Source of the DNA: Zingiber officinale
Lineage: Eukaryota > Streptophyta > Magnoliopsida > Zingiberales > Zingiberaceae
DNA: 64,000 nt
NCBI RefSeq assembly: GCF_018446385.1
Contig: NC_055994.1
Coordinates: 31,270,368 to 31,334,367 of the forward strand
Direction: 5' to 3'
Under the pieces are notes generated by a model. The model was not told the DNA's origin. It saw only the letters and a program-made list of their open reading frames with translations, and did no database searches. This document shows positions 8,883-64,000 of the stretch, one piece after another. Within the stretch, counting starts at the first letter, position 1. Each line of letters begins with the position of its first letter. The translations under genes were made by a program, and so were the position numbers.

Positions 8883-8985
8883 TGTTGGTGCAGTTAGCAC
8901 TAACGATTTAACCCAGGTTTTGATGAATGACAAATAGGTTAAGTTAGTTTTGTTGTTGTCTGACACTTTGATCGAGTGTGCAGGA

Positions 8986-9188
8986 GAAGTCCAGACAGGT
9001 CGACGGGCTGACCGGATGTCTGGCACGAAGTCCAAGCGGGTCGACGGGCTGACCGGACGCTTGGCGAGAAGTCCAGCTAGGTCGACGGGCTGACCGGATA
9101 GTTGGCGAGAAGTCCAAGCGGGTCGACGGGCTGACCGGACGCTTGGCGAGAAGTCCAGACGGGTCGACGGGCTGACCGGACGTCTGGC
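8986..9188 (+). repeat. Tandem array of five 41-bp hairpin units with covarying arms
   Basis: Each unit is GAAGTCC, a variable 5' arm, a near-constant centre GGTCGACGGGCTGACCGGA, and a 3' arm complementary to the first. Arm pairs seen: CCAGACA/TGTCTGG, CCAAGCG/CGCTTGG (twice), CCAGCTA/TAGTTGG (TAGCTGG in Element 2, a perfect pair), CCAGACG/CGTCTGG. The centre also holds GGTC...GACC, so each unit can fold as one long hairpin in either DNA strand or in RNA. Confidence 0.9.
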
Positions 9189-9465
9189 AGGTAAGTGAGG
9201 TAAGTCACTGGAGGGGAGTGACTGCGAGGACGCGTTCCCGAAAAGGAGACATTAGGCGTCGATCCGGCTTAGATCCATTTCGGATGTCTAAGTCGAGATC
9301 GTGACTAGATTCCGGTCTCGGAAAGACGGAATCTAAGTCATACTCTTTTTATCCATCTGTTGAACTTTAACTGTGCTAACAATCTGTTTTACAGGATACA
9401 TATTTGCCTCGGACTAACTTTGTTTTGCAGGAAAAGGGAGTTTTCTGAAACAAGGTGGTCCGGGC

Positions 9466-9590
9466 GCCCGGAGGGGATCCGGGCGCCCGGAAGGCGAATT
9501 CTATCCAGCCGAGTCGTCGCCACGTGGAGCATCATGGTTTGTGCAGCTATGTCACATTCCAGGCGCTCGGAAGGGATCCAGGCGCCTGGA
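9466..9590 (+). promoter_or_regulatory. GGCGCC palindrome array upstream of the LTR TATA box
   Basis: Copies of CCGGGCGCCCGG and its variants (CAGGCGCTCGG, CAGGCGCCTGG), separated by GGATCC-containing spacers. They end about 6 bp before the TATA box at 9597. The arrangement looks like a promoter-proximal protein-binding array. Confidence 0.6.
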
Positions 9591-9596
9591 ACAGCA

Positions 9597-9604
9597 TATA
9601 AAAG
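9597..9604 (+). promoter_or_regulatory. LTR TATA box TATAAAAG
   Basis: A consensus plant TATA box placed two-thirds into the LTR, as expected for the U3/R junction. It is conserved in the right LTR (near 17687) and both Element 2 LTRs. Confidence 0.75.
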
Positions 9605-9978
9605 AAGCCCCAGACAGGAGCTTCAGATGAAATTCAATTTAAGCTGAGAACTCTTCTACTGCTGGTCTTGCTGCTCGACGTTCAGTGCGATGCCAACAAA
9701 GTTCCGACAAAGTGCTACTTCGGTTTTTATTTAATTACCTTGTCGGTATTGCTTTATTTTCACTTGCATTTCCTGTACTCATTCTGTAATCATATTTCGA
9801 CTTGTTAGTGATTGCCCAACGAAAGTGGTCAAGGACCACGGGCCTTCGAGTAGGAGTCGTCACAGGCTCCGAACGAAGTAAAAACATCTGTGTCTATTTT
9901 ATTTTTCCGCTGCGTTTATACTCGTCTTTTTCGAATCGATATTCACCCCCCCTCTATCGACTCTGACGGTCCTACAAG

Positions 9979-9990
9979 TGGTATCAGAGC
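9979..9990 (+). promoter_or_regulatory. Primer binding site (initiator tRNA-Met)
   Basis: TGGTATCAGAGC starts two bases after the LTR end. It is the classic complement of the 3' end of initiator tRNA-Met used by plant Copia elements. Confidence 0.9.
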
Positions 9991-10213
9991 GGGTACCGCT
10001 CTGATTTGGTGCAACCACCAATCAGACAGGGGGTGAATTTTCTTTTATTTTTTTTTAATTAATTTTAAAACTGGTGTTTCATTAACTTAATATTTTTCTA
10101 ATCAATTTAAATTAGTGCAACACGAATCTAGTTTTTTTTTTTCTCTCTCTTCCCGCACTACTAATCCAAGACCAAGTCTTGGGATATTTTTTGGTTATTT
10201 ACCTGTGCACAGA

Positions 10214-11692
10214 ATGTCCCAACAAGAAGGATTCAGCACAGTGCGACCTCCACTCTTCAACGGGGACGACTTCCCTTACTGGAAGAAGCGCATGGAGGTC
10301 TACCTCAAAACTGACTTTGACCAGTGGATGAGCATTACGAGACCTTACAAAATTCCGACAGACACCTCCGGGAATATACTGGATCCTGAAGAATGGACAG
10401 CTGACTTGAAGAAGAAGGCGTCAACAGAAAACAAAGCGATCAACACTCTACAGTGCGGACTAACAAGAGAAGAGCTAAACAGAGTCGGTCCACACAAAAA
10501 CGCTAAAGAACTGTGGGACAAACTGATCGAGCTGCACGAAGGAACAAGCGACGCTAAGGTAACAAAACGAGACCTGCTTTTAAATAAAATTTTTAATATA
10601 AAAATGCAGGAAGGAGAAACAGCGAATCAACTCCACGCGAGGATCAAGGACATCCTCAACGGGCTCCATGCGATAGGCCACCAGATGGAGAACAGACACT
10701 TGATAAGATACGCATTAAACGCCTTTCCACGTAATAGTTTGTGGGCATCAATAGTGGATGCCTACAAAATTTCTAAGAATCTTTCTAAATTAAAATTGGA
10801 TGAGCTTTTCTGTGAATTAGAATTACACGAACAAACTAATGCTGGAGCCGAGAAAGGTGTAGCTTTATTTGCAGGTTCCTCCAAGAAAAGCAAGCCTGAA
10901 TTTGAAGAAGACGCCGACCAAGACTCCGAAGATGAAGAACACCTGGTGAACTTGGTAAGAAAAATGTTCACCAGGAGAAAGAGGAGCTTCAGCAAAAAGG
11001 ACCTTCAAAAGATCAGCTCTCCCTCAGAACAAAAGAACGTCACTTGCTACGGCTGCAATAAAAAGGGACACTACAAGAACGAATGCCCAACACTGAAGTT
11101 CGACAAATCAAAGCCAACCAAAAAGAAGGCACTCAAAGCAACGTGGGACGACTCCTCGGACGAATCGGAGGAAGAAGAGCAGAAACATCAGAGCCACCTC
11201 GCACTGATGGCCCACGAAGCTGAAACAGAAAACGAATCGGAAGATGAAGACGTGTCTGAACCCGAAACAAGCCACGAGTCCGTACTCGTTTCCGAAGGCC
11301 CGAATGAGGTATACTTTAATTTAAACAAAAAATTTTTTAGAATCATTTCCTGCTTAAATAGTAAATTAACTAAATTAGAAAATGAAAACAAATCACTTCT
11401 TGAGGAAAATCAAAACCTCAAGGAACAAATCATAAATTCAAATCTAACTCAAGATCTAACACTTGAGGAAGAAAATTTATTACTAAAAAATGAGATTAAC
11501 AATTTAAAAGAAATGTTAGAAAAATTCACAACAAGATCAAAAAATCTAGATTTAATCCTAAATAATCAAAAAGCATGTTATAATAAAGCCGGACTAGGAT
11601 ATAAGTCGAATTCAAATAAAACCTTCAAATCATTAATAACCCAATATAAATCAACCAATCTAGCTTGGGTTCCAAAAGTACCACGCAAGTAG
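10214..11692 (+). CDS. gag: Element 1 Gag (Copia capsid/nucleocapsid), 492 aa
   Basis: Structural protein that would form the virus-like particle and package element RNA. The chosen start MSQQEGFSTVRPPLFNGDDF matches the usual start of plant Copia Gag (PPLFNG-D-Y/F-W). The frame extends upstream to 10115 only through non-ATG codons. The N-terminal half holds the UBN2/retrotrans_gag-like helices (FPYWKKRMEVYL, LWDKLIELHEG, ARIKDILNGLHAIG). A CCHC zinc knuckle CYGCNKKGHYKNEC sits at about residues 278-291, followed by an acidic Ser/Glu stretch and a long coiled coil (about 380-450). The frame is open throughout, so this copy is young or preserved. It ends TAG with no pol behind it; in a complete relative, protease would follow the knuckle region. 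Confidence 0.9.
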   Translation: MSQQEGFSTVRPPLFNGDDFPYWKKRMEVYLKTDFDQWMSITRPYKIPTDTSGNILDPEEWTADLKKKASTENKAINTLQCGLTREELNRVGPHKNAKELWDKLIELHEGTSDAKVTKRDLLLNKIFNIKMQEGETANQLHARIKDILNGLHAIGHQMENRHLIRYALNAFPRNSLWASIVDAYKISKNLSKLKLDELFCELELHEQTNAGAEKGVALFAGSSKKSKPEFEEDADQDSEDEEHLVNLVRKMFTRRKRSFSKKDLQKISSPSEQKNVTCYGCNKKGHYKNECPTLKFDKSKPTKKKALKATWDDSSDESEEEEQKHQSHLALMAHEAETENESEDEDVSEPETSHESVLVSEGPNEVYFNLNKKFFRIISCLNSKLTKLENENKSLLEENQNLKEQIINSNLTQDLTLEEENLLLKNEINNLKEMLEKFTTRSKNLDLILNNQKACYNKAGLGYKSNSNKTFKSLITQYKSTNLAWVPKVPRK

Positions 11693-12394: not shown

Positions 12395-14330
12395 TAAATT
12401 TTAAAGTTAAAATTTTTAATTTTCACTTAAAAATTAATTTCAAAATTTTAATTTTAAACTTAAAAAATTAATTTCAAAATTTTAATTTTAACTTAAAAAA
12501 TTAATTTCAAATTTTAAATTTTAACTTAAAAATTAATTTCAAAATTTTAATTTTAAACTTAAAAAATTAATTTCAAAATTTTAATTTTAACTTAAAAATT
12601 AATTTCAAAATTTTAATTTTAAACTTAAAAATTAATTTCGAAATTTTAATTTTAACTTAAAAATTAATTTCAAAATTTTAAATTTTAAACTTAAAAATTA
12701 ATTTCAAAATTTTAATTTTAACTTAAAAAAATTAATTTCAAAATTTTAATTTTAACTTAAAAATTAATTTCAAAATTTTAAACTTAAAAAATTAATTTCA
12801 AAATTTTAATTTTAACTTAAAAATTAATTTCAAAATTTTAATTTTAAACTTAAAAATTAATTTCAAAATTTTAATTTTAAACTTAAAAAATTAATTTCAA
12901 AATTTTAATTTTAAACTTAAAAAATTAATTTCAAAATTTTAATTTTAACTTAAAAATTAATTTCAAAATTTTAATTTTAAACTTAAAAATTAATTTCAAA
13001 ATTTTAATTTTAACTTAAAAATTAATTTCAAAATTTTAATTTTAAACTTAAAAATTAATTTCAAAATTTTAATTTTAACTTAAAAATTAATTTCAAAATT
13101 TTAATTTTAAACTTAAAAATTAATTTCAAAATTTTAATTTTAACTTAAAAATTAATTTCAAAATTTTAATTTTAAACTTAAAAATTAATTTCAAAATTTT
13201 AATTTTAAACTTAAAAATTAATTTCAAAATTTTAATTTTAAACTTAAAAATTAATTTCAAAACAAAATTTTAATTTTAAACTTAAAAATTAATTTCAAAA
13301 TTTTATTTTAAACTTAAAAATTAATTTCAAAATTTTAATTTTAACTTAAAAATTAATTTCAAAATTATAATTTTAAACTTAAAAATTAATTTCAAAATTT
13401 TAATTTTAAACTTAAAAATTAATTTCAAAATTTTAATTTTAACTTAAAAATTAATTTCAAAATTTTAATTTTAACTTAAAAATTAATTTCAAAATTTTAA
13501 TTTTAACTTAAAAATTAATTTCAAAATTTTAATTTTAAACTTAAAAATTAATTTCAAAATTTTAATTTTAAACTTAAAAATTAATTTCAAAATTTTAATT
13601 TTAAACTTAAAAATTAATTTCAAAATTTTAATTTTAACTTAAAAATTAATTTCAAAATTTTAATTTTAAACTTAAAAATTAATTTCAAAATTTTAATTTT
13701 AACTTAAAAATTAATTTCAAAATTTTAATTTTAACTTTAAAAATTAATTTCAAAATTTTTTTTAACTTAAAAAATTAATTTCAAAATTTTAACTTAAAAA
13801 TTAATTTCAAAATTTTAATTTTAACTTAAAAAATTAATTTCAAAATTTTAATTTTAACTTAAAAATTAATTTCAAATTTTTAATTTTAACTTTAAAAATT
13901 AATTTCAAAATTTTTAATTTTAAACTTAAAAATTAATTTCAAAATTTTAATTTTAAACTTAAAAATTAATTTCAAAATTTTAATTTTAACTTAAAAATTA
14001 ATTTCAAAATTTTAATTTTAAACTTAAAATTAATTTCAAAATTTTAAACTTAAAAATTAATTTCAAAATTTTAATTTTAACTTAAAAAATTAATTTCAAA
14101 ATTTTAACTTAAAAAATTAATTTCAAAATTTTAATTTTAACTTAAAAATTAATTTCAAAATTTTAATTTTAAACTTAAAAATTAATTTCAAAATTTTAAC
14201 TTAAAAAAATTAATTTCAAAATTTTAATTTAAAACTTAAAAATTAATTTCAAAATTTTAATCTTAAACTTAAATTAATTTCAAAATTTTAACTTTAATTT
14301 CAAAATTTTAATTTTAATTTCAATTTTTTT
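12395..14330 (+). repeat. AT-only minisatellite, about 60 copies of a 31-33 bp unit
   Basis: The unit alternates AAAATTAATTTCAAAA with TTTTAATTTTAAACTT. Almost no G occurs for 1.9 kb; C appears only in TTTCAAAA and AAACTT. The unit alternates between versions with TTTTAACTT and TTTTAAACTT. It lies between gag and ORF2, where a normal Copia element has pol. Confidence 0.95.
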
Positions 14331-14708: not shown

Positions 14709-15965
14709 ATGGCTCCTCGGTAAAACTTCTTCCCCTATCTGAAATTTTATTTGAAATTATCTTTGCAAACTTTCTTAGAATATTTTTTTTTTAACAGTAA
14801 GAAACGAACAAATACTGGTGCTGGACCCTCCAATGCTAGTACAGACCCTAGGTTTCCTACAGACGAACTTAGGATTAAGTTTGAGTCTACTATTTATAAG
14901 GCCATTATGACTACCTGCATAGATAGATCGTTCTTTCTAAGGTCATGTCCCTCCGCTTTAGAGGTTATAGGCCACTATAACTTAAGGAACCTTGTCGAAT
15001 GTACTAGTCCAATAAACATAAGTCTGTGTGCCGAATTTTTCAATAACCTAGTGAGAGTGGACGATCTCACATATACCACTAGGGCAGCAGGCATTGATAT
15101 CACATTTTCCCCTACGACCATCCGAGAGTTCTTAGAGTTGCGTCCATCTACCTGTTCCTTTTTGTGCTATCCTCCGAGGGATCTACCATTCGGAGATCCC
15201 TACTCACATATTACTCTCGATACGATTTACTCGTATTTTTTTGGGGGAGAGAGATATCTCACTATGACACAGTTTAGGTCAGTAGAACTTCGGGTCCAGG
15301 ACTACGCTCTTTATAGGGTTGTAGTCCTTTGCATTTTACCACTGACTACTCGGGACATCGCTGTGATGTGCCCATTCCATTCATTCTTACTTTATGCCCT
15401 GATTCATAGGTTAGATATTGACATCAGCCTACACATTTTCTCCACCATTATCTACTCAGCTGGATTCGTGACTGATAGACGAGTCCACATACCATTCGGT
15501 CACATTCTGACATCCTATATGTCCTCGTTGCGTATTGATATCACTAGAGGAGACATTGCCCATATGACCGAGTTCGATGTTATAGCAGCACGGAACTTCT
15601 CCCTAGCCGGTATCCAGATAGATAGAGATGACGGGACTATGTCTTGGCGGAGGGGGGCACAGCACCAGCCCGATCCAGACGCACAGGTGGACGAGTTCAT
15701 GCTCGCACTATTTCCGGAGGAAGCCGCACCGGCTCCACCACCTCCCCCAGCTCGAGCACCACGTCACGCTCCCCGCTCTCTATCCGACCGTATGACCGGA
15801 CTAGAGAGAGCTATGGCGAGTCTCCAGCAGGAGAACTCTGATTTTCATCGAGACATTCGACGAGAGGTAGCCGAGTTACGAGCTGCCGGGGATACCCGAC
15901 ACACTGAGCTGATGACGCTTCTCCGATCCTTGGGATCAGGACCACCCCCTTCATCATCTCAGTAG
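14709..15965 (+). CDS. Element 1 ORF2: putative plant transposon protein, spliced, 392 aa
   Basis: Exon 1 is 14709-14719 (MAP plus two bases) and exon 2 is 14798-15965. The 78-nt intron has GTAAAA at its donor and a T-tract plus AACAG at its acceptor. Splicing gives MAPRKKRTNTGAGPSNAS, a basic start; 393 codons including stop, frame intact. The body (about 30-270: LRIKFESTIYKAIM, IREFLEL, IHRLDIDISLHIFSTI, ARNFSLAGIQIDRDDGTMSW) resembles the putative plant transposon protein domain found as an extra ORF in plant retroelements; its biochemical role is unknown. Then comes a Pro/Ala-rich linker (APAPPPPPARAP) and a C-terminal coiled coil (MTGLERAMASLQQEN). It has a dedicated promoter just upstream. 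It occupies the place of env-like ORFs in SIRE elements, but I see no signal peptide or membrane span. Confidence 0.75.
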
Positions 15966-17005
15966 ATCTAGTTATGACTCACTTCTGTATCTACACTACT
16001 TGTAAAATACTTTGGATCTATCTAGTGATAGTTCAGACTCACATTGGTTATGTTCCAACTTGATAGACTAGGATTTTTCAAAAAAAAAAAAAAACTTTCA
16101 AAAATGGTTTTGTCAAAGTATAAGTCAAATTTATTTGTTTTCAAAACTTGCCATTTTTAGATTTTCAAAAACAGTTTTGGCCTTAGACTAGTTTTGAATC
16201 CTTAGAAAGCATGTACCCATAGGACTAGTTTTTGAGCATCTCACCAACACCTTAGGCTTACCTTGCTTGTGTTTGACAAACATAGAAAGGGGTGAGATGC
16301 ATAGGCCAACTGTCTGGACTTAAGATGCTTATTTCAGTGCATCAGCATAAGTCTGGACGTTAAATACAAATCAGACAGTAATCAGATTAAAGATAATCAG
16401 TCAAGTCATACACTGACCTTAATCTGACTAACCAAGTGAAAGCTACTATCTTCTGATAGTTAGTTAGTACCTAATTGGTTAGACAGCTGTTTAATTTTAA
16501 GATATCAAGTTCAGGGGGAGAAATTAATAGCAAAACTTGAAAGTTTAAATCCCATTTAATTTTTTTAAACCTGTGTTTAAAAGTTGAATATAGCATATTT
16601 AAACTTATTCAGTTCTTGTAAAATATGCTTGGAAATCTTTACACACTTGAAAAGTGAAACTTGATTAACTTTAAATTTATACTTTTCAAAATTCAACTTG
16701 TCTCCCCTAAGTCAACTTGATCTTTTTTTTCCTTGGATTTAAAAATTGTACTTGAATTTTGAACCAAACTCAGATATTCTTTTCAAGATTAACTGTGATT
16801 ATTTTTTACAGTAACTCTACACTATGATTGTTTACCCTTGCTTATTTTTTTTGATGAATGCCAAATGGGGAGGGTTAGGTGGTTAAGTTAGCTAAACCAA
16901 TTTGAAAATACAAACTAACTTTAAAAACCACATAAATGCATGTTGTTTCTTGCATATGTTAACACTAACTTAACCAGGTTGTCATTCCATCAAAAAGGGG
17001 GAGAT
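15966..17005 (+). other. Element 1 3' non-coding region with polypurine tract
   Basis: No gene. AT-rich and similar (inverted) to 40146-41160 of Element 2. It ends with the purine tract AAAAAGGGGGAGA immediately before the right LTR at 17006, the plus-strand priming site. A second purine-rich stretch (AAATGGGGAGGG) lies near 16861. Confidence 0.7.
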
Positions 17006-18057
17006 TGTTGGTGCAGTTAGCACTAACGATTTAACCCAGGTTTTGATGAATGACAAATAGGTTAAGTTAGTTTTGTTGTTGTCTGACACTTTGATCGAGT
17101 GTGCAGGAGAAGTCCAGACAGGTCGACGGGCTGACCGGATGTCTGGCACGAAGTCCAAGCGGGTCGACGGGCTGACCGGACGCTTGGCGAGAAGTCCAGC
17201 TAGGTCGATGGGCTGACCGGATAGTTGGCGAAAAGTCCAAGCGGGTCGACGGGCTGACCGGACGCTTGGCGAGAAGTCCAGACGGGTCGACGGGCTGGCC
17301 GGACGTCTGGCAGGTAAGTGAGGTAAGTCACTGGAGGGGAGTGACTGTGAGGACGCGTTCCCGGAAAGGGGACATTAGGCGTCGATCCGGCTTAGATCCA
17401 TTTCGGATGTCTAAGTCGAGATCGTGACTAGATTCCGGTCTCGGAAAGACGGAATCTAAGTCATACTCTTTTTATCCATCTGTTGAACTTTAACTGTGCT
17501 AACAGTTTTACAGATACATATTTGCCTCGGACTAACTTTGTTTTGCGGGAAAAGGGAGTTTTCTAAACAAGGTGGTCCGGCGAGGGATCCAGCGCGGAAG
17601 GATCCGGCATCCAGTCGTTGCCATGTGGAGCATCATGGTTTGTAACGTTACATTCCGTGCGCGGAAGGGATCCAGCACTGAACAAGATATAAAAGAAGCC
17701 CCGATAGGAGCTTCGATGAAATTCAATTTAGTGAGAACTCTTCTCGGTCTTCTTTCGACGTTCAGTGCGACGCCAACAAAGTTCCGACAAAGTGCTACTT
17801 CGGTTTTTATTTAATTACCTTGTCGGTATTGCTTTATTTTCACTTGCATTTCCTGTACTCATTCTGTAATCATATTTCGACTTGTTAGTGATTGCCCAAC
17901 GAAAGTGGTCAAGGACCACGGGCCTTCGAGTAGGAGTCGTCACAGGCTCCGAACAAAGTAAAAACATCTGTGTCTATTTTATTTTTCCGCTGCGTTTATA
18001 CTCGTCTTTTTCGAATCGATATTCACCCCCCCCTCTATCGACTCTAACGGTCCTACA
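17006..18057 (+). repeat. Element 1 right (3') LTR, 1052 bp
   Basis: It matches the left LTR with scattered substitutions, including all five hairpin units (17109-17311). In about 17560-17770 it has lost many short pieces, mostly at the GGCGCC palindromes. It ends CCTACA before TAAGC. Confidence 0.9.
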
Positions 18058-23597: not shown

Positions 23598-24133
23598 TGT
23601 TGGTGTAATCATTCTCGGTTCAAAGTTGACCAGGTTGACTAAGCTCAAGTGGATTCGAGTTTGAGTTTGGATGTTTAGACAATATGTGAGAAGAGGTCAA
23701 GTAGGTCAAGGTTGACTGGATACTTGATAAAATATGAGAGAGAAGTCAAATAGGTCATGGAGGACCAGATACTTAACTGAGAAAGTCCTAACTAGAGGTT
23801 AGGTAAAGGTAAAATCCTAGTTGGAGGGATGAAGTCCTAACTCGAGGGTTAGGTAAGAGAAAGTCCTGACTATGGTTAAGTAAAGGAAAGTCCAAACTAT
23901 AGTTAGGCAAAGAAAAGTCTAAGTGGGTCAAGGAGGATCACACATTAGCAAAGGAAAGTCCTTACTGCAGTTAGGCAAATAAAAGTCTATGTGGGTCAAG
24001 TAAGACTGCACATTGGCAAAAAAAAAAGTCCTAACTATGGTTAGGCAAAGGAAAGTCTAAGTAGGTCAATGAGGACCACATGTTGATAAAGGTAAAGTCC
24101 TAACTGTAGTTAGGTAAAGGAAAGTTTAAATGG
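23598..24133 (+). repeat. Another Copia LTR 5' fragment with AAGTCC-hairpin units
   Basis: It begins TGTTGGTGTAATCATTCTCG. After a TTTGAGTTTGGATGTTTAGA stretch come at least ten AAGTCC-led units. Many have complementary arms: CCTAACTGTAGTTAGG, CCTAACTAGAGGTTAGG, CCTTACTGCAGTTAGG. It is cut at 24133 by the LTR of the next element. A related LTR lies inverted at 56660-58150. Confidence 0.6.
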
Positions 24134-39063: not shown

Positions 39064-40145
39064 TGTTGGACCGTTAGATTCGATAGAGGGGGGGTGAATA
39101 TCGATTCGAAAAACAAGAGTATAAGCGCAGCGGAAAAGTAAAATAGACACAGTTGTTTTACTTCGTTCGGAGCCTGTGATGACTCCTACTCGAAGGCCCG
39201 TGGTCCTTGACCACTTTCGTTGGGCAATCACTAGCAATTCGAAATAATGATTACAAAAGAACCGTACAGTGAATGCTAATGAAAACTAAAAACAAAATAC
39301 CGACAAGAAGGGAAAAGAATGGAGCGTAGTGTCGGAGCTTTGTCGCCGAACGTTGAGCAAGATCGCAGAGAAGAATTCTCACAATTGATTCATTCGAAGC
39401 TCCAGGGCTTCTTTTATATCGTCAGCTGGATCCCTTCCGGCACGAATGTGATGTAACCGCACAAACCATGATGCTCCACGTGGTGACGACTCGTGGATAG
39501 AATTCGCCTTCGCTCGGATCCTTAAGGCCGGGACCTCAGCGCCGGACCACCTTGTTCCAGAAAACTCCTTTTTCCGCAAAACAAAGTTAGTCCGAGGCAA
39601 ATGTATATCCTGTAAAACAGATTGTCAGCACAGTTAAAGTTCAACAGATAAATAAAAAGAGTATGACTTAGATTCCGTCTTTCCGAGACCGGAATCTAGT
39701 CACGATCTCGACTTAGACATCCGAAATGGATCTAAGCCGGATCGACGCCTAATGTCCCCTTCCCGGGAACGCGTCCTCACAATCACTCCCCTCCAGTGAC
39801 TTACCTCACGTCCGGCCCCGTCGACCGTCTGGACTTCTCGCCAAGCGTCCGGTCAGCCCGTCGACCCGCTTGGACTTCTCGCCAGCTATCCGGTCAGCCC
39901 GTCGACCTAGCTGGACTTCTCGCCAAGCGTCCGGTCAGCCCGTCGACCCGCTTGGACTTCTCGCCAGCTATCCGGTCAGCCCGTCGACCTAGCTGGACTT
40001 CGTGCCAGACATCCGGTCAGCCCGTCGACCTGTCTGGGCTTCTCCTGCACACTTGATCAAAGTGTCAGACAATAACAAACTAACTTAACCTGATTTGTCA
40101 TTCATCAAAACCTGGGTTAAATCGTTAGTGCTAACCGCACCAACA
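39064..40145 (-). repeat. Element 2 LTR (3' in its orientation)
   Basis: TGTTGGACCG...CACCAACA in plus sense. It contains the hairpin array (about 39807-40048, complement) with arms CCAGCTA/TAGCTGG perfectly paired, and TATA near 39413-39420. The GGCGCC palindromes are mostly eroded. Confidence 0.9.
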
Positions 40146-42049
40146 ATCTCCCCCTTTTTGATGGAATGACAACCTGGTTAAGTTAGTGAAAACATATGCA
40201 AGTAACAACATGCATTTATGTGATTTTTAAGTTAGTTAGTATTTTCAAATTGGTTTAGCTAACTTAACCACCTAACCCTCCTCCCCCTTTGACATTCATC
40301 AAAAAAAATGAACAAAGGTAAATAATCATAGTGAAGAGTTACTGTAACAGGTAATCAAATTTTGAAAGATATCTAAGTTTGGTTCAAAATTTGAACGATA
40401 AAAGTGCAATTTTTAACACCAAGTAAAAAAAATAGTCAAGTTGACTTGGGGGATTTTAAAGTTTTGAAAACTTGTTTAAAGCATTAGCTTTTAGCTTTTA
40501 GAAAAATTGCTAAGTTTAGATAGTCTAATTTTCAAACATATGTGTATAAGGTCTAAATTTCAAGATCAAGTTTAAATTTTCAAAACAAGTTTCAACTTTG
40601 AAACGCTTTTCAAACATAAGTTTTCAAAACCAAAATTCCAAAACTAAGTTTGAAAAATTTATTTTTCAAACTGATTGAAAAATACTAGAAAAAAATCAGT
40701 TTTCTAGAATACTAGAAAAGTACTAGTTTCAAAACCATGGTTTAAAATACTAGAAAAGTTCAGTTTTTAAGTACTAAGTAAAAAGGATAAAAAGTTTGTG
40801 ATTTAAAACAAACAATTTTGAGTTGATTTAAAAAAATTTTCACAATTTTAAGCAAGTTGATTTTGAAAATTGATTTTTAAACTTTGATTTTCAAAATTAA
40901 GGAAAATGATTTTGAGAAGCTTAGTTTGTAAACTTAAGTTTTGAAAAATCTAATTTCCATAATTTTCAAAACTAAGTTAAATCTAATTTTCAAAATTAAT
41001 TTTCAATAAAAAGTAAAACTCAATTCTTAAAAACAACTTAGTTTTATAAGAGTTAGTTTTCAAAAGTAGGTTTAAGAAATTTTTAAGAAAATATTTTTCA
41101 AACAAAATTTAAAATATTTTATATAAAGGAAAATTTTTAATTAATTCCTCCCCCTGAACCTGACATAAAATTTGAAAATATTTGCTAAAAATATTCAAAG
41201 TAGATATATATTTATTTTTTAAATTGAGGTAGAATTTTCTAGAGAGATTTTAAAGAGAAGATTAAAAAAATAACACTTCAGGAGATAATTAAACAATAAA
41301 CCTCCCCCTTAATTTGATACTCCTTTAATTTATTAATCCTCCTTATTTATTACTTTCCCTTAATATAAAATTTTACAACCGTAACATATTTTTGTACCTA
41401 AGTGTTTTAGACGATTGTATAATTATCTTTATAAAATTGTTCATTTAAATTTGACTAACCGTAATTAATGTTAGATTAAGTTGAAATAAATTAACCTTTA
41501 GTGTAATGTTAAGTAAGATAAGTTGTTATTAATTCAATAATTGATCAATATTAATAATTTATTGATTAAATTTTGCTATAATCTAAATTTTGTATTAATT
41601 GATGAAGGTGTTAGTTATAATTTAACTTTTCATTTACTTCCTTTTAAGTTGGATTGACTTAGTTTAAAGTTAAACTCGTTATTAAACAAAGTTAAGTAAG
41701 GTTCAATTTAAGTCAAACTTTAATTATGTTTTAATAAAAATAATTAATATTTTAAAGGTTGATTAAGAAAAATGACTTAGAGTAATTTTAATATTTTTAC
41801 TAAGGTTAAACCTAGGTTCTGATCAAATCAAGCTTAGTTCTCAAATAAAGTTAAACTTAAATAGTTAAGTTCTACTTATTAATTACATAATTAAGTTTTA
41901 ATGAGTTTTAATTTAAGATCTAATTTTTAGTTAAGTTAAATTAAAAAATAATTTTAAGATTAAAATGATGTTTAAGATTAAAAATGAGTTTAAAGTCAAA
42001 ATAATAATTTTTAAAGTGAAAATAGTCTATAGAAACTATTTTTTTTTAA
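40146..42049 (-). other. Element 2 3' non-coding region
   Basis: No gene. Very AT-rich, low-complexity sequence (TTTTCAAAA, AAGTTAAA words). The part next to the LTR is homologous to 15966-17005 of Element 1. Confidence 0.65.
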
Positions 42050-42870
42050 GTTAAAAGAATTTTATTATAGTGAAAAAATAATAAGAATTTTTCAAAATGA
42101 TACATAATTTTTAAAATAGTTTTTAAATGATTTTTAAAAGTTTTTAAAATAATTTTTGAAATAATTTTTAAGTTAAAATGATTTAAAAATATAATTTTTA
42201 TATTAAAATAATTTTAAGTTAAAATAGTTTTTAAGTTAAAATAATTTTTAAGTTAAAATAATTTTTAAGTTAAAATAATTTTTATGTTAAAATAATTTTT
42301 AAAATAACAATAATTTTAAAAGGTTTTAAAAGAATTTTTAAAGTTTATGAAAATGATTTTTAAAAGAGTTTTTTTTTTAAATAATTTTTAAAATGTTTTA
42401 AAAGAATTTTTAAAAGAATTTTTAAAAGAATTTTTTAAAGTTTTTAAAATGATTTTTAAAATAGTTTTTTAAAATAATTTTAAAGTTTTTTAAAATGATT
42501 TTTAAAAGAGTTTTTTAAAATAATTTTTAAAAGAATTTTTTAAAGTTAATTTAATATTTTTTTTAAAATTAATTTAGTTTTAATTCGAAATTTAATTTTT
42601 TAATTAATTCAAAATTTAATTTTAATTTGAAATTCAAATTTTAATTTTAATTAATTTTAATTTAATTTTAATTTAATTTGAAATTTAAAATTTGAAATTT
42701 AATTTTAATTTGAAATTCAATTTGAAATTTGAAATTTGAAATTTTAATTTTAATTTGAAATTCAATTTGAAATTTTAATTTTAATTTGAAATTCAATTTG
42801 AAATTTTAATTTTAATTTGAAATTCAATTTGAAATTTAATTTTAATTAATTTTAATTTAATTTGAAAATT
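42050..42870 (-). repeat. Element 2 AT-rich short tandem repeats
   Basis: In plus sense: runs of AATTTTTAAGTTAAAAT (about 16-17 bp), then AATTTGAAATTCAATTTG (about 42640-42850). They stand at the place of the 1.9-kb AT minisatellite of Element 1, on the same side of the shared non-coding block, but the unit sequence is different. Confidence 0.8.
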
Positions 42871-42889
42871 AATTTGATCCTTATTCATC

Positions 42890-43400
42890 TCACCCGATCT
42901 AGATTATGAATCAGGGAATCCTATAATTTTGTGAGATGAATTAGATTTAATTACAGAGTTTGTTTTAACTTTTGTTAGATTCAGGTTTAGCTTTGATCTC
43001 AACAAATAGGCATTCTTCGGATAAACTTCTAAGCTTGGTGAGTCACTTGGACGTCATTAGAAGTAGCCAACCTTTCGAGGTTTTCCGAATAGTCCTATCA
43101 ACGGAGCTTAGTATTAAACCTTGGTCTAACTAGTTAGGATCCATTTAAGGGTAGCTTCGGTCAGTTTCACTTGGCCAAATGCACCAGATCGAAGCCATAT
43201 CTTTCTAGACATGCGATGCCCAAGCTTCCCTAACGTACTATCATCCAAAAACTTCACCAGTACCATGATTCAAGTTAAACTTGGTCTCTTTTTAACTAAT
43301 CCTAATTACCCTGTCGGGTTAGTTTGTTTGGGTTACCCTGTCGGGTAAGTTAGTTTTGGAGGTACCAGCTATTCTGGAGCCTCCCCCTGAATTATTGGCC
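42890..43400 (-). other. Non-coding block shared with Element 1
   Basis: The complement of this stretch matches about 11880-12360, with many substitutions and small indels but continuous alignment. It has no open frame in either element. Confidence 0.75.
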
Positions 43401-43644
43401 ATTAATTTAAGATTTTTGTATAATTAGAGTTGGTTTTAGTTAAGTTTTAATGTTTAGTTTGTAATTTAAATTTAAGTTTTTAATTTTGAATTAATTAAAT
43501 TGGTCAAATTATCTTTCTTTAAGAGAGTGTATTTAATATTTGAATTTTCTTTCAATTTTAATTTTATTGAGTTAATTAAATTATCTTTCTTTAATAGCTT
43601 ATTTTTAAAGTTTAAGTTTTTATTTATTTTTAAATTTGAATTAA

Positions 43645-44664
43645 CTAAACTGAATTATATTTTCTTAACGGTTTATCTTTTAGCTTTTTATTAATTGTTA
43701 ATTTTGAAATTTCTAGATTATTTTTGTTTAATTTGTTATCTTTAACATTTAATTTTAAGTTTGTTAAATTCCGTTTTGATTTTATCAAAGTGTTTGATTT
43801 TATCCTTATATTTTCTTTGCCTTTTAAATTGATATGGTTAATTGAATTAGTTAGATTAGTTTTATCTTTAAAGTTTAAATTTTTATTAATTAAATTATCT
43901 TGGTTTTGGATAGCATTTTCTAGACTGATTTTATCTTGATTATTAAATATTTTATTAGGGTATTTATTGATTTTATCCATTTTCTCATTTTTAGCATTTA
44001 AATTCAAGTTTATTTTAATGTTTGACTTATTTATGTCTAAATGCTCACCTAATTTTAAATTTTCTGAATTAATTAAATTATTTGAATTGATTTGGTCATT
44101 GTTCTGTTTGACCAAGTCAAGGTTGATGCCAAATTGATCAGAGTCTTGATTGACTTGATCAGAGTCTAGATTATTCTGTGATTTTGAATTTAAATGATTT
44201 AAATCTAGATTATCATGCATCATACTTGGACTAATTTCATACTTATCATCATGCTGATTATTTAAGCTACTATTAGCAGGGGTATTTTGATAAATATTAC
44301 TAACCTTGAGCGCAACCCCTAATTCAGTAGGCTTCTCCGTTGGATTTGACTCGAGTCCATATTTGACTTTAACTTGATTTTCTAGCTCCATCGGCGTCTC
44401 GTGAAGCTTGATCAACTGGGTCCACAGCTCATATGCATTCTTGTACTTTTCTAATCTGCATAAAATATTGTTAGGTAAAACATTACAAATAATGTTACTT
44501 ACCTTTTTGTTCAATTCCAAGTTTTGAGAAGGTTTCCTCAAAATTAGCATATAATCGATGTCTACGCTTCCTAAGAAGCATTCCATTAATCGCTTCCAGT
44601 AGTTGAAGTCTTCATGATCGTATGGTGGTGGTTCGCAGGGGTTCCGTCCTTCTTGAAGAGTCAT
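43645..44664 (-). CDS. gag: Element 2 degenerate Gag, 339 aa, Asn/Lys-rich
   Basis: The N-terminal 100 residues are a recognisable but shortened Copia Gag: MTLQEGRNPCEPPPYDHEDF, YWKRLMECFLGSVDIDYML, then KNAYELWTQLIKLHETP. After that the protein turns into repetitive Asn/Asp/Lys/Leu-rich sequence (NLDSDQVNQDSDQFGINLDL, ISLENAIQNQDNLINKNLNF) with no zinc knuckle, and ends RKYNSV. The frame remains open for 340 codons although the sequence is AT-rich, where stop codons should be frequent. It probably cannot package RNA by itself. The upstream extension to 44751 has no ATG. Confidence 0.65.
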   Translation of the reverse strand: MTLQEGRNPCEPPPYDHEDFNYWKRLMECFLGSVDIDYMLILRKPSQNLELNKKVSNIICNVLPNNILCRLEKYKNAYELWTQLIKLHETPMELENQVKVKYGLESNPTEKPTELGVALKVSNIYQNTPANSSLNNQHDDKYEISPSMMHDNLDLNHLNSKSQNNLDSDQVNQDSDQFGINLDLVKQNNDQINSNNLINSENLKLGEHLDINKSNIKINLNLNAKNEKMDKINKYPNKIFNNQDKISLENAIQNQDNLINKNLNFKDKTNLTNSINHINLKGKENIRIKSNTLIKSKRNLTNLKLNVKDNKLNKNNLEISKLTINKKLKDKPLRKYNSV

Positions 44665-45016
44665 TATTCTTGCACATAGAGAAACAGACAAAAAAAATCC
44701 CAAGACTTGGTCTTGGATTAGCAGTGCTGGAGAAAGAATATAATATTGCACTAATTTTGAAAAATAATAAAATATTAATAAAATATTAATTAAAAAAATA
44801 TTATTCCAAAATTTTGAAAATGTAATATTTTATCAATACTAAGCAACGGTGAAAAGATGATGATGTGTTTTTCAAAAATGATTTTGGAGGGAAAAAACGA
44901 AAGGCGTAAGGTTTTATTTTAAAGACAAACGATATCTAATTTTTCTTTCAAAAAGTCCCCCCTTTGCCTGATTGGTGGTTGCACCAAATCAGAGCGGTAC
45001 CTGCTCTGATACCACT

Positions 45017-46046
45017 TGTTAGACCGTTAGATTCGATAGAGGGGGGGTGAATATCGATTCGATAAGCGCAGCGGAAAAGTAAAATAGACACAGTTGTTTT
45101 ACTTCGTTCGGAGCCTGTGACGACTCCTACTCGAAGGCCCGTGGTCCTTGACCACTTTCGTTGGGCAATCACTAGCAATTCGAAATAATGATTACAAAAG
45201 AACCGTACAGTGAATGCTAATGAAAACTAAAAACAAAATACCGACAAGAAGGGAAAAAATGGGCGAGTGTCGGAGCTTTGTCAAGGCCGCACCAACGCTG
45301 AGCGCAAGATCGCAGAGAAGAATTCTCAAATTGATTCATTCAAGCTCCCGGGCTTCTTTTATATCACGGATCCTCCGGCGCCGAATGTGACGAATCGCAC
45401 AAACCATGATGCTCCACGTGGTGACGACTTGGCTGGATAGAATTTGCCTTCCGGGCGCCCGGACGGACCACCTTGTTCGAAAACTCCCTTTTCCCGCAAA
45501 ACAAAGTTAGTCCGAGGCAAATGTATATCCTGTAACACAGATTGTAGTTAAAGTTCAACAGATAAATAAAAGAGTATGACTTAGATTCCGCCTTTCGAGA
45601 CCGGAATCTAGTCACGATCTCGACTTAGACATCCGAAATGGATCTAAGCCGGATCGACGCCTAATGTCCCCTTCCCGGGAACGCGTCCTCACAATCACTC
45701 CCCTCCAGTGACTTACCTGCCAGACGTCCGGTCAGCCCGTCGACCCGTCTGGACTTCTCGCCAAGCGTCCGGTCAGCCCGTCGACACCTGCCAGACAGCC
45801 CGTCGACCCGTCTGGACTTCTCGCCAAGCGTCCGGTCAGCCCGTCGACCCGCTTGGACTTCTCGCCAGCTATCCGGTCAGCCCGTCGACCTAGCTGGACT
45901 TCGTGCCAGACATCCGGTCAGCCCGTCGACCTGTCTGGGCTTCTCCTGCACACTTGATCAAAGTGTCAGACAATAACAAACTAACTTAACCTGATTTGTC
46001 ATTCATCAAAACCTGGGTTAAATCGTTAGTGCTAACCGCACCAACA
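45017..46046 (-). repeat. Element 2 LTR (5' in its orientation)
   Basis: It starts TGTTAGACCG in plus sense and ends CACCAACA. It has the hairpin array at about 45717-45949 (one unit disrupted) and one intact CCGGGCGCCCGG palindrome near 45450. TATA lies near 45357-45363. Confidence 0.9.
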
Positions 46047-56659: not shown

Positions 56660-58150
56660 TGTAGAGAGCTAGAGGAGGTGAATAGCTTCGTTTGCTCCTT
56701 TAAAGATAATTTGTAGTGGAAAACTTGAGGCAATTCTAACCCTTCATTTTACTTGGTATCCATCTCCTTGAGAACTAATCCAAGAGTCTGGCTTTCACGA
56801 TCTCATCCACTATGAAATCTATCTGTCTTGGAAATTTTTTAGAGGTGGAGAAACCTCATACAATCTTGAACACAAGAAATACAATAAGAAATGAAAACAA
56901 ATATAATGAATACACAACTTTACATGAATCTTGCGTTGAGCACTTTCTTATTGTTTGGAATTGCCTCTTGTTTGGTTGGAAATGCAGTAGCACTTGTTCC
57001 TCAACTCCCAAGAACTGGCATGTGAAAATTTGCACGAACTCCCCTTTATATGAATTCTCCTCGAGCTGATTTCGATCTCCTAATCGATTAGCTTTTCTTC
57101 ATAATTGATTGTCACATCATAATTCAATAGTTCAACTTACAGAACGACTCTTTTTCAAATTCTTAATCAATTGGCGAGTTATACCAATTGATTATCTAGC
57201 CTTTAATTGATTTTCCAATTGATTTCATAACGTTCTGTGCTCTCGCGAACAAGGCCCCAATCGATGACCTTAGGGTAATCAAGTTATCAATTGATTCAAG
57301 CAATCAGCCTAATCGATTAGAATAGGTCAATCAATTAGCCTAATCTTTTAATACTACCTAATCAATTGAGCTAATCGACCAAGCAACTTTCTATGTTGTC
57401 GCAAAACATAGTCAATCGATTACCCAAATCGATTGGTGAAGCTTGAATCAATTGCCCCAATCAATTCTAAGCTTTTGCTCTCATGAAAACCTCTCTCAAT
57501 CATTACCCTAATCAATTGCCTTGGGCCAATTGATTACTCTAATCGATTACTTAACCCTAAATGTTGAACCCAAGTTTAGAGTTCCTTTTCCTAACCTAAA
57601 AGTCATTCGTGACTCATTGGGGCTTTCCGTTGCTTAGCATCTAATCACCTTTGACTTGTCAGGGCTTCTTTACCAAATATCCAGTCAATTTTTGGCCCAC
57701 TTGGACTTTTCATCTCATGCCAAGTGTCTGATCCTTCATGACTCACTTGGATTTATCGTTTCGTGCCAAATGTTTGGTCCTCCGTGACCCACTTGGATTT
57801 TTTTCTTACCAAGCCCTGCTAGGATTTTCAATTGTCTAATCTCTAATTAGGTCTTCTACTGCTTAGCCCCACTAGGACTTCCATTGCTAGTTCCCAACTA
57901 GGTCTTCTACTGCCTAGTTTCCAACTAGGTCTTTACTGCTTAATCTTGCTAGGACTTTTCATTGCCTAACCTCGAGTTAGGAATTCCCGTTGCCTAATCT
58001 TCAGTTAAAACTTTCTCAAACAACTATCTGATCCTCCCTTAACTTAGTTAACTTCTCTCACACATATTGTCAAACATCAAAACTCAAGCTTGAGTCAACT
58101 CAAGTTTAGTTAAACTAGTCAAACTTGACCTGAGGATGATTGTACCAATA
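56660..58150 (-). repeat. LTR (family with AATCGATT palindromes), minus orientation
   Basis: In plus sense TGTAGAGAGCTAGAGGAGG...TGTACCAATA. It is related to 58880-62705 (shared TTACTTGGTATCCATCTC and GAGGTGGAGAA-CCTC). An AATCGATT array lies about 57070-57560. AAGTCC-type hairpin units (in minus sense CCTAGTTGGAAACTAGG and similar) lie about 57650-58020. No matching target duplication was found. Confidence 0.6.
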
Positions 58151-61800: not shown

Positions 61801-62705
61801 AATTCTAATGCTTTTGTTCTATTTTTTAATCGATCAATTAATTGATCGAACATATCAATCGACTATTACTATAGCAAAACACTATTTATAATTATTGTAG
61901 CAGTGCTTAGCAACATTGTAGTAGTACTATAGCAGTTGCATTTTTTATTTTTCAGGATTTTGCATCTAATTCCAATAATACTCCTGTTTCAGCCTTATTA
62001 AAGTTGAATTCTTATTTTGTCTAGTATCTAGTTAACCTCAACCTATCGGGACTTCCTTTACTCGACATCTAGTCAACTTTGACCTACTGAGACTTTTTTT
62101 TATCTAATATTTGATCAATCTTGACCTGTCGGGACTTCCTCGTTGCCTAACATCGGGTCAATCTTGACATGTCGGGACATGCTCATTGCCTAACATCCGG
62201 TCAACTTTGACCTGTCGAGACATCTTCATTATCTAGCATCCGGTTAACCTTGACCTGTCGGGACTTCCTTGTTGCCTAACGTCCGATCAATCTTGCTATA
62301 TTGGAATTTCCTTATTGTCTAACATTTGATCAACTTTGATCTGCCAGGACTTCACGCCTCACTCCAACTCCATGTTAGAGTTTCAACTACCAAATGTCTG
62401 GTTAACCGTGACTCATATGGACTTTCTTTTTATGTCAACTCTATGTTGAACTTTTGATCAATAAGTGTCTAGTCAATCGTGACCTAGTTAGACTTTCCAT
62501 TTTGTTAAGTATCCAATCAACTTTAACCTACTTGACTCTTCCTCAATAAATTAATATATTGATTGACTATTAAGTATTCAATCAATCTTGACCTATTTGA
62601 CGTCTCGACCAACTAACATATTAATCAAACATTGAAACTCGAACTCGTGTTAACTAGAGATTGGTAAACTTGGTCAACCTTGATTAGGAGTCAATTGCAC
62701 CAATA
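58880..62705 (-). repeat. Solo LTR split by a nested solo LTR
   Basis: In plus sense it starts TGTTAGGACTCG (58880) and ends GCACCAATA (62705). Flanks AGGAT and GGGAC differ by two transitions, consistent with an aged duplication. The outer pieces are 58880-59438 and 61533-62705. Palindromes of the GTCGATTAAT type are at 61540-61860, followed towards the end by AAGTCC-style units in minus sense. Confidence 0.65.
59444..61527 (-). repeat. Nested solo LTR, 2084 bp, TSD TATTT
   Basis: It is homologous, inverted, to the LTR at 24134-25975 (shared CTCACTAGCTAGAGAC-like, CACTTCGACTTA-like and AATCATCATATG-like words). Perfect duplication TATTT (59439-59443, 61528-61532). The terminal TG is mutated at its right-hand end in its own sense (TATTGGGG in plus). 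Confidence 0.85.
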
Positions 62706-63131: not shown

Positions 63132-64000
63132 TGTTGGAGGATCGGTGGCCGGCTTGAAGGGGGGTTGGATAGACGACACCCCCAAATCGTTAGCTTCCTA
63201 CACTATTGTTAGCTTGCGCAGCGGAAATACAAATACTAAAGCAATGAATACGAAAGCTAAAGAAAGAAAAGAACTAGCAAACCAATACACGTTCGTTTAA
63301 CGTGGTTCGGAGATGATGCTCCTACTCCACGGCTGTCCGTAAGGTGGACGATCCCGATCCTTCGGTGGATTAGCCCCCGGAAACTCCGGCTATCTCAAGT
63401 CGCTCCTTGTGGGTGGAGAAACCTCACCACAACACACCAAGACCTCTTGGATTCCACAAACACTTGAGCACTTGTAGACTACTAATTAGACCTTAACCAA
63501 GTCTAATTTCGTCGCCTTGGCCGGCCATCTCAAGTTCCTTCTTATAGAGCTTGGGGAAATCAGCCTTGCTGATTTGCCCGTTACCAGTCGACTGGTCCAT
63601 GCACCAGTCGACTGGTGCCAGCCCAACGGCTTATCAGTCGACTGGTCCCATGACCAGTCGACTGATCCCAGCCATTTCGGGCACAGAATGCTTCTGTGCT
63701 CACCACCAGTCGACTGATCCCAGTACCAGTCGACTGATCCCAGTACCAGTCGACTGGCATAACCCTAAACTTAGGGTTTCCCATCCCGAGTACATTTCAC
63801 TCGCACTCGGACCCTCACGACTCTCTTGACTCTTCTTTGCAGCCTTGACCTCTTGCCTTCAAGCCTACTTCCTTTGGCTCTCGTCCCTCGGATGCATCCA
63901 AGCCCGCGGCTTGTCTCCAATGCCATCCTTCGCGTATGCCTCAAAGTCGCTTCCCTCGGCCCTAGTCCTTGCTGCCTTGTCCACGATCCCTCAGATGTAT
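63132..64000 (-). repeat. Partial Copia-type LTR running off the right edge
   Basis: In plus sense TGTTGGAGGATCGGTGGCC, with the TTGAAGGGGGGTTGGATAG and GCGCAGCGGAAA words shared by the other LTRs. ACCAGTCGACTGGT palindromes recur at about 63580-63760. TTATAGAGC near 63542 is the likely TATA region. The hairpin array, if present, lies beyond 64000. Confidence 0.7.

Follow-up and report, generated by a model that had tools for sequence, protein, structure and literature searches.

What is being kept in a tandem array of hairpins whose arms change their letters while staying complementary to one another? The question is raised by five 41-bp units in a long terminal repeat (LTR) carried by a stretch of Zingiber officinale DNA of 64,000 nucleotides, which we call the window. 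A first-pass annotation had described the five units as sharing one constant centre and had read their arms as several different but matched pairs, and both descriptions hold: GGTCGACGGGCTGACCGGA occurs in five exact copies (starts 8998, 9039, 9080, 9121 and 9162; spacing 41 bp), and the arm pairs read identically (Table 1), including the imperfect CCAGCTA/TAGTTGG, whose counterpart in a second element, CCAGCTA/TAGCTGG, is a perfect match. Beyond being constant, the centre has a GGTC/GACC stem of its own, followed on the 3' side by three unpaired bases, GGA. At up to three mismatches, GGTCGACGGGCTGACCGGA has 21 matches in the window, against a shuffle average of 0.01, and because the arm types alternate along the array, a period of 82 bp fits it better than one of 41 bp (TRF scores of 354 and 280, respectively). 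Our preferred reading, to which we give a probability of roughly one half, is that the array consists of conserved bulged stem-loops kept in those copies that spread, perhaps at the 3' terminus of the genomic RNA, where they would serve as repeated recognition sites.

Two elements in the window carry such arrays, namely element 1, a Copia element of 9.2 kb, and element 2, which is 7.0 kb long and lies on the minus strand (39064-46046). Within the 5' LTR of element 1, stretches of 300 and 278 nt are repeated at 99% about 8.1 kb downstream; the LTR pair of this element shows 34 mismatches in 1,049 aligned columns, with 48 gap columns, and that of element 2 shows 45 differences in 1,006 aligned columns, gaps excluded. 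TAAGT/TAAGC and GCTAA/GCTAA are possible target-site duplications. The putative TATA box, TATAAAAG at 9597, lies about 410 bp beyond the end of the array and therefore places the array in U3. The gag ORF was counted as Copia-type with a zf-CCHC match of 17.9 bits, below the cut-off of 20.8. A search of elements 1 and 2 for an ORF of the size of pol found none in either, and both therefore look non-autonomous. The 404-aa ORF of element 1 occupies the place downstream of gag where pol is expected, and its weak match, PF20167, is a putative plant transposon protein; between it and gag, a 33-bp A+T-rich unit is repeated in tandem about 59 times (12410-14307), and A+T-rich tandem stretches are also seen in element 2 at 42159-42877.

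Table 1. Coordinates, in the window, of the hairpin arrays and of the elements that carry them.
Feature	Position	Strand	Basis or remark
Hairpin array, five 41-bp units	8984..9188	+	TRF, exact centre matches; U3 of 5' LTR, element 1
Hairpin 1, arm type a, CCAGACA/TGTCTGG	8991..9023	+	
Hairpin 2, arm type c, CCAAGCG/CGCTTGG	9032..9064	+	
Hairpin 3, arm type b, CCAGCTA/TAGTTGG	9073..9105	+	a single G.U in the sense strand, read as A.C in the opposite one
Hairpin 4, arm type c, CCAAGCG/CGCTTGG	9114..9146	+	
Hairpin 5, arm type d, CCAGACG/CGTCTGG	9155..9187	+	
Copy of the five-hairpin array in 3' LTR of element 1	17107..17311	+	
Array in 3' LTR of element 2, five units	39817-40044	-	
Array in 5' LTR of element 2, one unit damaged	about 45727-45945	-	
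5' LTR of element 1, TGTTGG...CCTACA, 1,094 bp	8883..9976	+	end motifs, PBS directly after
3' LTR of element 1	17006..18057	+	
3' LTR of element 2	39064..40145	-	
5' LTR of element 2	45017..46046	-	
Inverted repeat bracketing the PPT, right arm (Sirevirus-type)	8918..8947	+	read by eye
PPT inverted repeat, left arm, and PPT AGGGGGAG at 16996, then AT before 3' LTR	16965..17005	+	
Two CCGGGCGCCCGG palindromes, repeated motif of CGG-CCG type	9460..9490	+	upstream of TATA
CCAGGCGCTCGG and CCAGGCGCCTGG, further palindromes of CGG-CCG type	9559..9589	+	
TATAAAAG, putative TATA box	9597..9604	+	
Poly-C tract CCCCCCC, putative Sirevirus integrase signal	9946..9952	+	near LTR end
Primer binding site TGGTATCAGAGC (met tRNA)	9979..9990	+	
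gag ORF, Copia type	10115..11692	+	PF14223, E 1.4e-15
404-aa ORF	14751..15965	+	weak PF20167 match, 39.1 bits (cut-off 45)

The structural marks of the element agree with those given for Sireviruses in PMC2829016. There, the polypurine tract (PPT) is bracketed by an inverted repeat whose right arm lies some 28 bp into the LTR, several PPT copies stand in the linker, the junction of 5' LTR and primer binding site (PBS) reads CA/A(T or G)TGG TATCAGAGC, a poly-C integrase signal lies about 21 bp from the LTR end, and the TATA box is near mid-LTR. Here, the inverted repeat has a left arm of 31 nt (16965-16995) and a right arm that lies 35 bp inside the LTR, as read by eye; the PPT/attachment site is AAAAAGGGGGAGAT/TGTTGG in both elements, with the AT/TG of Sireviruses; the junction is CCTACA/AGTGGTATCAGAGC; and there is a poly-C tract near the LTR end together with a TATA box near mid-LTR, a likeness judged, for the 19-bp signal, on its C tract. 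The PPT octamer AGGGGGAG has two copies between the 5' and 3' LTRs of element 1 and five in element 2. Judging by these marks, the host of the array would be a Sirevirus-like Copia element without pol. Four 12-nt CGG-CCG boxes, one of them imperfect, stand at 9460-9589; these CG-rich palindromes by the TATA box also vary symmetrically (CCGGGCGCCCGG, CCAGGCGCCTGG), and in the fetched loci the mixed forms CCAGGCGCCCGG and CCGGGCGCCTGG outnumber CCAGGCGCCTGG.

The unit itself follows a plan of 33 nt: a 7-nt arm, GGTC, a loop, GACC, a 3-nt bulge, and the second 7-nt arm. In a survey anchored on GGTC(4-14 nt)GACC alone, which covered the fetched loci and the window on both strands and yielded 866 anchors, perfect 7-bp arms were found at offset 0/3 in 190 cases, at 0/0 in 17, which are other palindromes, at 0/2 in one, and elsewhere in at most 8, whereas chance would give about 0.05 per offset (offset 3/0 is the mirror of 0/3 and holds the same 190 anchors on the opposite strand). 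The 3' bulge is thus nearly always three bases long, and mostly GGA (172 of the 190, with AGA in 11, GAA in 5, and AAA and TGA in one each), and the loop is of 8 nt in 174, 6 nt in 11, 9 nt in 4 and 7 nt in one. The stem ends sharply, with only 0.01-0.07 Watson-Crick pairing at flank pairs past position 7 in 231 units with perfect arms. Among 82 distinct arm pairs, the inner stem is closed on the sense strand by G-U in 62, A-U in 15, G-C in 5 and A.C in none; A.C closing pairs occur in two units outside these 82 (loci L028 and L083). When four units of the window were folded singly as sense RNA, each adopted the structure described here; a unit comprises 12 pairs plus the bulge. A perfect palindrome lacking the bulge, for example ctgatcGGTC...GACCgatcag, was seen in loci L050, L085 and L102, its arms also varying symmetrically, and another, at window position 63643, has yet other arm letters.

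Genome-wide, the exact unit centre occurs 41,825 times in the 3.09-Gb genome, on 211 contigs, and the flank downstream of the array has 8,885 matches at up to three mismatches. Neighbouring LTR flanks on the same strand lie 5.9 to 13.6 kb apart (median 7.3 kb), as taken from 25 pairs within 4-15 kb among the first 100 places listed. In the family designated A, the array stands at a constant position, some 100 bp into the LTR and before the TATA box: the median depth of the first core in the LTR is 115 bp (75 array hits, overlapping loci kept), and the TATA box lies at 715 bp (58 hits). The same hairpin plan is followed by LTR families with other centres and other arm letters. A related form, GGTCAA...TTGACC, has 4,028 genome matches to a search pattern in which two outer letters of either arm were prescribed, and 30 fetched loci of this form (of which L098 and L099 overlap) contain more units on the same plan, mostly with other arm letters, such as AAGTA/TACTT, AAGTG/CACTT, AGATG/CATCT and CTAGCA/TGCTAG. 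Among 190 units of these other families, 77 pair at 7/7, 34 at 6/7 and 63 at 4 or fewer positions, in a looser, clustered extraction that may include chance matches. Genome-wide, the innermost arm pair of related families is often A.C (CCAAGTA with CACTTGG), which is a wobble on the antisense strand only. In the window, mostly decayed stretches with the same plan in other letters lie at 23720-24133 (+), 57696-57800 (-) and 62115-62295 (-), for example CCAAGTG-GGTCACGGAGGACC-AAA-CATTTGG, and are probably LTRs of related families.

The covariation of the arms was assessed on units extracted by their exact core only, with the arms ignored, which gave 324 units, with each LTR of an element contributing its own. 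Arms paired fully (7/7, G.T allowed) in 239 of these and at six of seven positions in a further 59, where shuffling of the right arms gives 57.5 and 82.7, respectively. When 153 column pairs were ranked by the G statistic over 166 unique units, the top four were L3-R3, L1-R1, L2-R2 and L4-R4, with L5-R5 seventh. In an ungapped set of 82 distinct arm pairs, drawn from 292 units with a loop of 8 nt, no shuffle reached the paired-cell count; cells changed on both sides numbered 142 against 53.6 ± 15.2 in shuffles (0/500), and the covariation score was 0.335 against 0.186 (0/500), with slid versions scoring at most 0.081. All seven outer pairs have two-sided change, a count not beyond the shuffles (57/500 reach 7), and RNAalifold, unprompted, returned the same structure minus the two outermost pairs. 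Against a tree-based null of independent columns (300 simulations), the share of Watson-Crick cells exceeded the simulated maximum in family A (0.832/0.803), in other families (0.696/0.483) and in all units together (0.765/0.526). Double changes on the same branch numbered seven in other families (null mean 1.8, max 5) and seven in the whole set (mean 2.2, max 6), and family A had one (mean 1.6), which is no excess. The tree-corrected test per pair, an R-scape-like script with 60 simulations and a tree built from the same short columns, is borderline: a stem pair heads each ranking, and E falls below 0.05 for L3-R3 and L1-R1 in one set and for L1-R1 in other families, and for no pair in the largest, full set. 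A first, loose extraction of 2,200 matches, in which stem pairs made up one of the top 25 column pairs, was discarded as mostly chance and replaced by the exact-core and clustered sets; an Rfam search of 8883-10100 gave two matches, both outside the array and far below their gathering scores (E 0.42 and 0.57).

The arms thus change in step above a shuffle null and, for the share of Watson-Crick cells, above a tree null, in families with other letters as well, and the stem is therefore what is shared, which supports the first-pass annotation in part; its argument from covariation to a kept stem does not hold as stated, because covariation alone is no proof of selection on a stem when template switching can give the same pattern, as is described in PMC8794818. 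We nevertheless regard it as probable that the structure is under constraint.

How the arms behave once a copy has been inserted was followed by genome-wide counting of one pair, namely pair 4 of type b, which is G-C in 12,220, G.T in 491, A.C in 311 and A-T in 18 cases. The 18 double changes compare with 12.8 expected (p 0.15), which is no significant excess, so that at this pair the arms of inserted copies decay separately, as is expected of dead copies, and the match between arms would have been set in lineages that still moved. The annotation had named independent change of the two sides as evidence against its reading, and among resident copies these counts do give independence. In a sample of 71 arrays chosen for having at least three units (3 to 8 each; 357 units), changes from the four main types were two-sided in 12 and one-sided in 144 cases, with about two two-sided changes expected on a rough estimate and several of the 12 belonging to older relatives. 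Both arms were of the same type in 286 of the 357 units and of different types in 11, three of these being d/a, which are one letter apart, while 60 were unclassified on at least one side. Mismatched chimeric units number 270 and 234 genome-wide, against the 12,220 matched units of type b. The commonest order of units, abcbd, was found in 8 of the 71 arrays. Avoidance of like neighbours was considered and is not claimed: of 199 classified neighbour pairs in family A, 14 have the same arm type in both units, against a shuffle average of 36.5, but much of this deficit is explained by the 82-bp dimer and by common descent, and cross-pairing in other families is more frequent between adjacent units (13/60) than between non-adjacent ones (8/62). 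Transmission, scored as a same-strand partner array 4-15 kb away, was 30/70 for intact type b and 8/97 and 4/98 for chimeras, in lists of the first 100 places each, the intact list being confined to the initial 29 Mb of contig 1; this comparison is silent on selection for pairing, as a loop-variant control (4/99, by eye) behaves like the chimeras (p 0.59).

As to the strand, mismatch counts lean to the sense strand, with the 491 G.T exceeding the 311 A.C at the mirror-equivalent site (binomial 2e-10, without correction for ancestry), a lean that one inherited sub-lineage could cause; partner arrays were found in 16/99 and 8/100 of the two classes (p 0.086), and the G.T/T.G and A.C/C.A cells of the covariation set are about equal (at least 49 and at least 59 among the rows listed, summed by eye). 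Modelled folding, on the other hand, leans to the antisense strand: the mean probability of pairing between a unit's own arms in whole-array ensembles (307 units) is 0.21 for sense and 0.39 for antisense RNA, and the predicted stability of sense arrays does not exceed that of shuffled sequences (z -0.89 and -0.75), in contrast to the antisense (z -2.64). Folding of the whole array as naked RNA prefers longer-range pairing. That the sense RNA is the molecule kept is put forward tentatively, at somewhat less than even odds.

The main and serious rival to selection on the fold is template switching, in which the polymerase, in replication or, more likely, in reverse transcription, copies one inverted arm from the other, so that a mutation bias keeps the arms paired with no function. 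The process creates and maintains RNA hairpins with compensatory changes of several bases, according to PMC8794818, and it would suit both the arm types, which differ by several letters at once, and the chimeric units, which exist in numbers and are possible raw material. What speaks against it is that the bulge is hardly ever lost (190 units with 3 nt stand beside a single one with 2 nt and 17 bulgeless cases that are other palindromes) and that pairing hardly ever extends past the seventh position. Moreover, there is no significant excess of matched doubles in resident copies at the pair counted, and template switching is therefore uncommon in chromosomal replication, although it could still act in reverse transcription; we consider it a possible but less likely explanation. 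A further alternative holds that a few matched types were made once, long ago, and that whole units were then copied and shuffled with no ongoing covariation. Family A gives this some colour, being dominated by four types with an inherited array order and showing no same-branch doubles above the null. Its perfect types, however, number 10 (278 units) against 12 in older or other families (190 units), with one shared, and the other families show the excess of same-branch doubles reported above; exchange between units also occurs, with breakpoints that can fall in the centre, and mismatched units should spread if they were unconstrained. We regard this explanation as improbable.

Rather than a folded single strand, the object kept might be double-stranded DNA, the palindromes being symmetric enhancer or silencer boxes for protein dimers and the arms their half-sites. 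High-copy boxes upstream of the TATA box, some with a CGGTC-GACCG core, are described for Sirevirus LTRs in PMC2829016, and the present array likewise ends upstream of a TATA box that CGG-CCG palindromes directly precede. In the same source, Sirevirus motifs of rice and grape have GGTC/GACC half-sites separated by 0-1 nt, where the inner stem seen here could not form, which counts against the RNA reading. A dimer, however, would need identical letters in its two half-sites, whereas the arm letters vary in matched pairs; the one-sided 3-nt bulge breaks the dyad; and the spacing of the half-sites ranges over 6-9 bp, although it is 8 in 174 of 190. These points make the DNA reading unlikely. Less likely still is that host small RNAs are made from the hairpins and that this is why the element keeps or tolerates them, as has been proposed for maize Sirevirus palindromes; this is the dsRNA/siRNA trigger that the first-pass annotation had listed among possible roles. 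Palindromes of maize Copia LTRs are linked to small RNAs and methylation in PMC10760457, but 12 pairs interrupted by a 3-nt bulge make each unit short for Dicer, silencing is a cost to the element, and the conservation of the bulge would be left unexplained; we hold this to be very improbable as the kept function.

We return, therefore, to the reading of conserved, bulged stem-loops in RNA. The U3 of a 3' LTR sits in ordinary genomic RNA, at its 3' end, and for this reason the 3' end of the genomic RNA would be the most likely molecule in which copies that continued to transpose have preserved a folded single strand; the array copy at 17107..17311 would be transcribed within sense genomic RNA, and the antisense or read-through RNA invoked earlier is not needed. 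Protein-binding RNA hairpins usually have arms whose letters vary while the match is kept, and a bulge and inner stem that are near-fixed. The bulge and upper stem, set on an interchangeable lower stem, could likewise form repeated protein-binding sites, for which Gag or a host factor is a candidate binder, acting in packaging, export or stability. Such a role would suit a pol-less element that needs the proteins of a relative, and a packaging or handling signal is attractive because an element without pol depends on the proteins of others; all the same, a protein-binding or packaging role is, in our estimate, possible but somewhat unlikely. A more specific form of the proposal, in which a shared protein-binding head (the bulge and GGTC/GACC) is combined with mutually non-complementary lower stems that prevent mispairing between neighbours, the whole serving packaging or export and parasitising the proteins of autonomous relatives, is speculative and appears to us improbable.

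Tandem, partly palindromic U3 repeats of a Copia LTR are also seen in the BI/BII boxes of Tnt1, which have been studied as promoter elements; to our knowledge matched arm variation is not reported for them, and it distinguishes the array described here. The palindrome region of maize Sireviruses is reportedly a small-RNA hotspot (Bousios et al. 2016), whose role is said to have been framed as silencing. The link of maize Sirevirus palindromic repeats to small RNAs has been published (PMC10760457; PMC5311732), and the region resembles ours in being a palindrome-rich, variable and hairpin-capable cis region of Copia LTRs, whereas the maize motif CACCGGACNNNGTCCGGTG in PMC10760457 has no bulge, unlike the present units. 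The closest likeness is to the published palindromic repeats upstream of the TATA box in Sirevirus LTRs, the RM boxes, which in PMC2829016 are high-copy U3 palindromes, several of them with a GGTC/GACC core; the 13 published there are palindromes of 10-20 nt with one consensus per element, whereas the units here measure 33-41 nt, have a long loop and a 3-nt bulge on one side only, and come in several different but matched arm types within a single array. The RM boxes are, in addition, defined by a CGG-CCG core, while the 41-bp units have GGTC/GACC(G) in a bulged form and are not plain palindromes. In the available portion of that source no covariation is described, and 'compensat' is absent from its main text. 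A literature search, incomplete in its coverage of journals, turned up among the titles and abstract openings listed no account of covarying arms or of a constant bulge between them in these LTRs, and as far as the searches show, the covariation, the fixed bulge and the several arm 'codes' per array are new.

Palindromes have been known in Sirevirus LTRs since 2010 (PMC2829016), and what keeps them could be DNA symmetry, an RNA fold or silencing; joint change in the two arms, with the bulge held constant, points to a folded single strand. With 41,825 exact centres in a single genome, selection and template switching can be tested against each other from sequence alone. If the RNA role is true, the array would be a repeated cis signal that may let an element without pol use the proteins of other elements.
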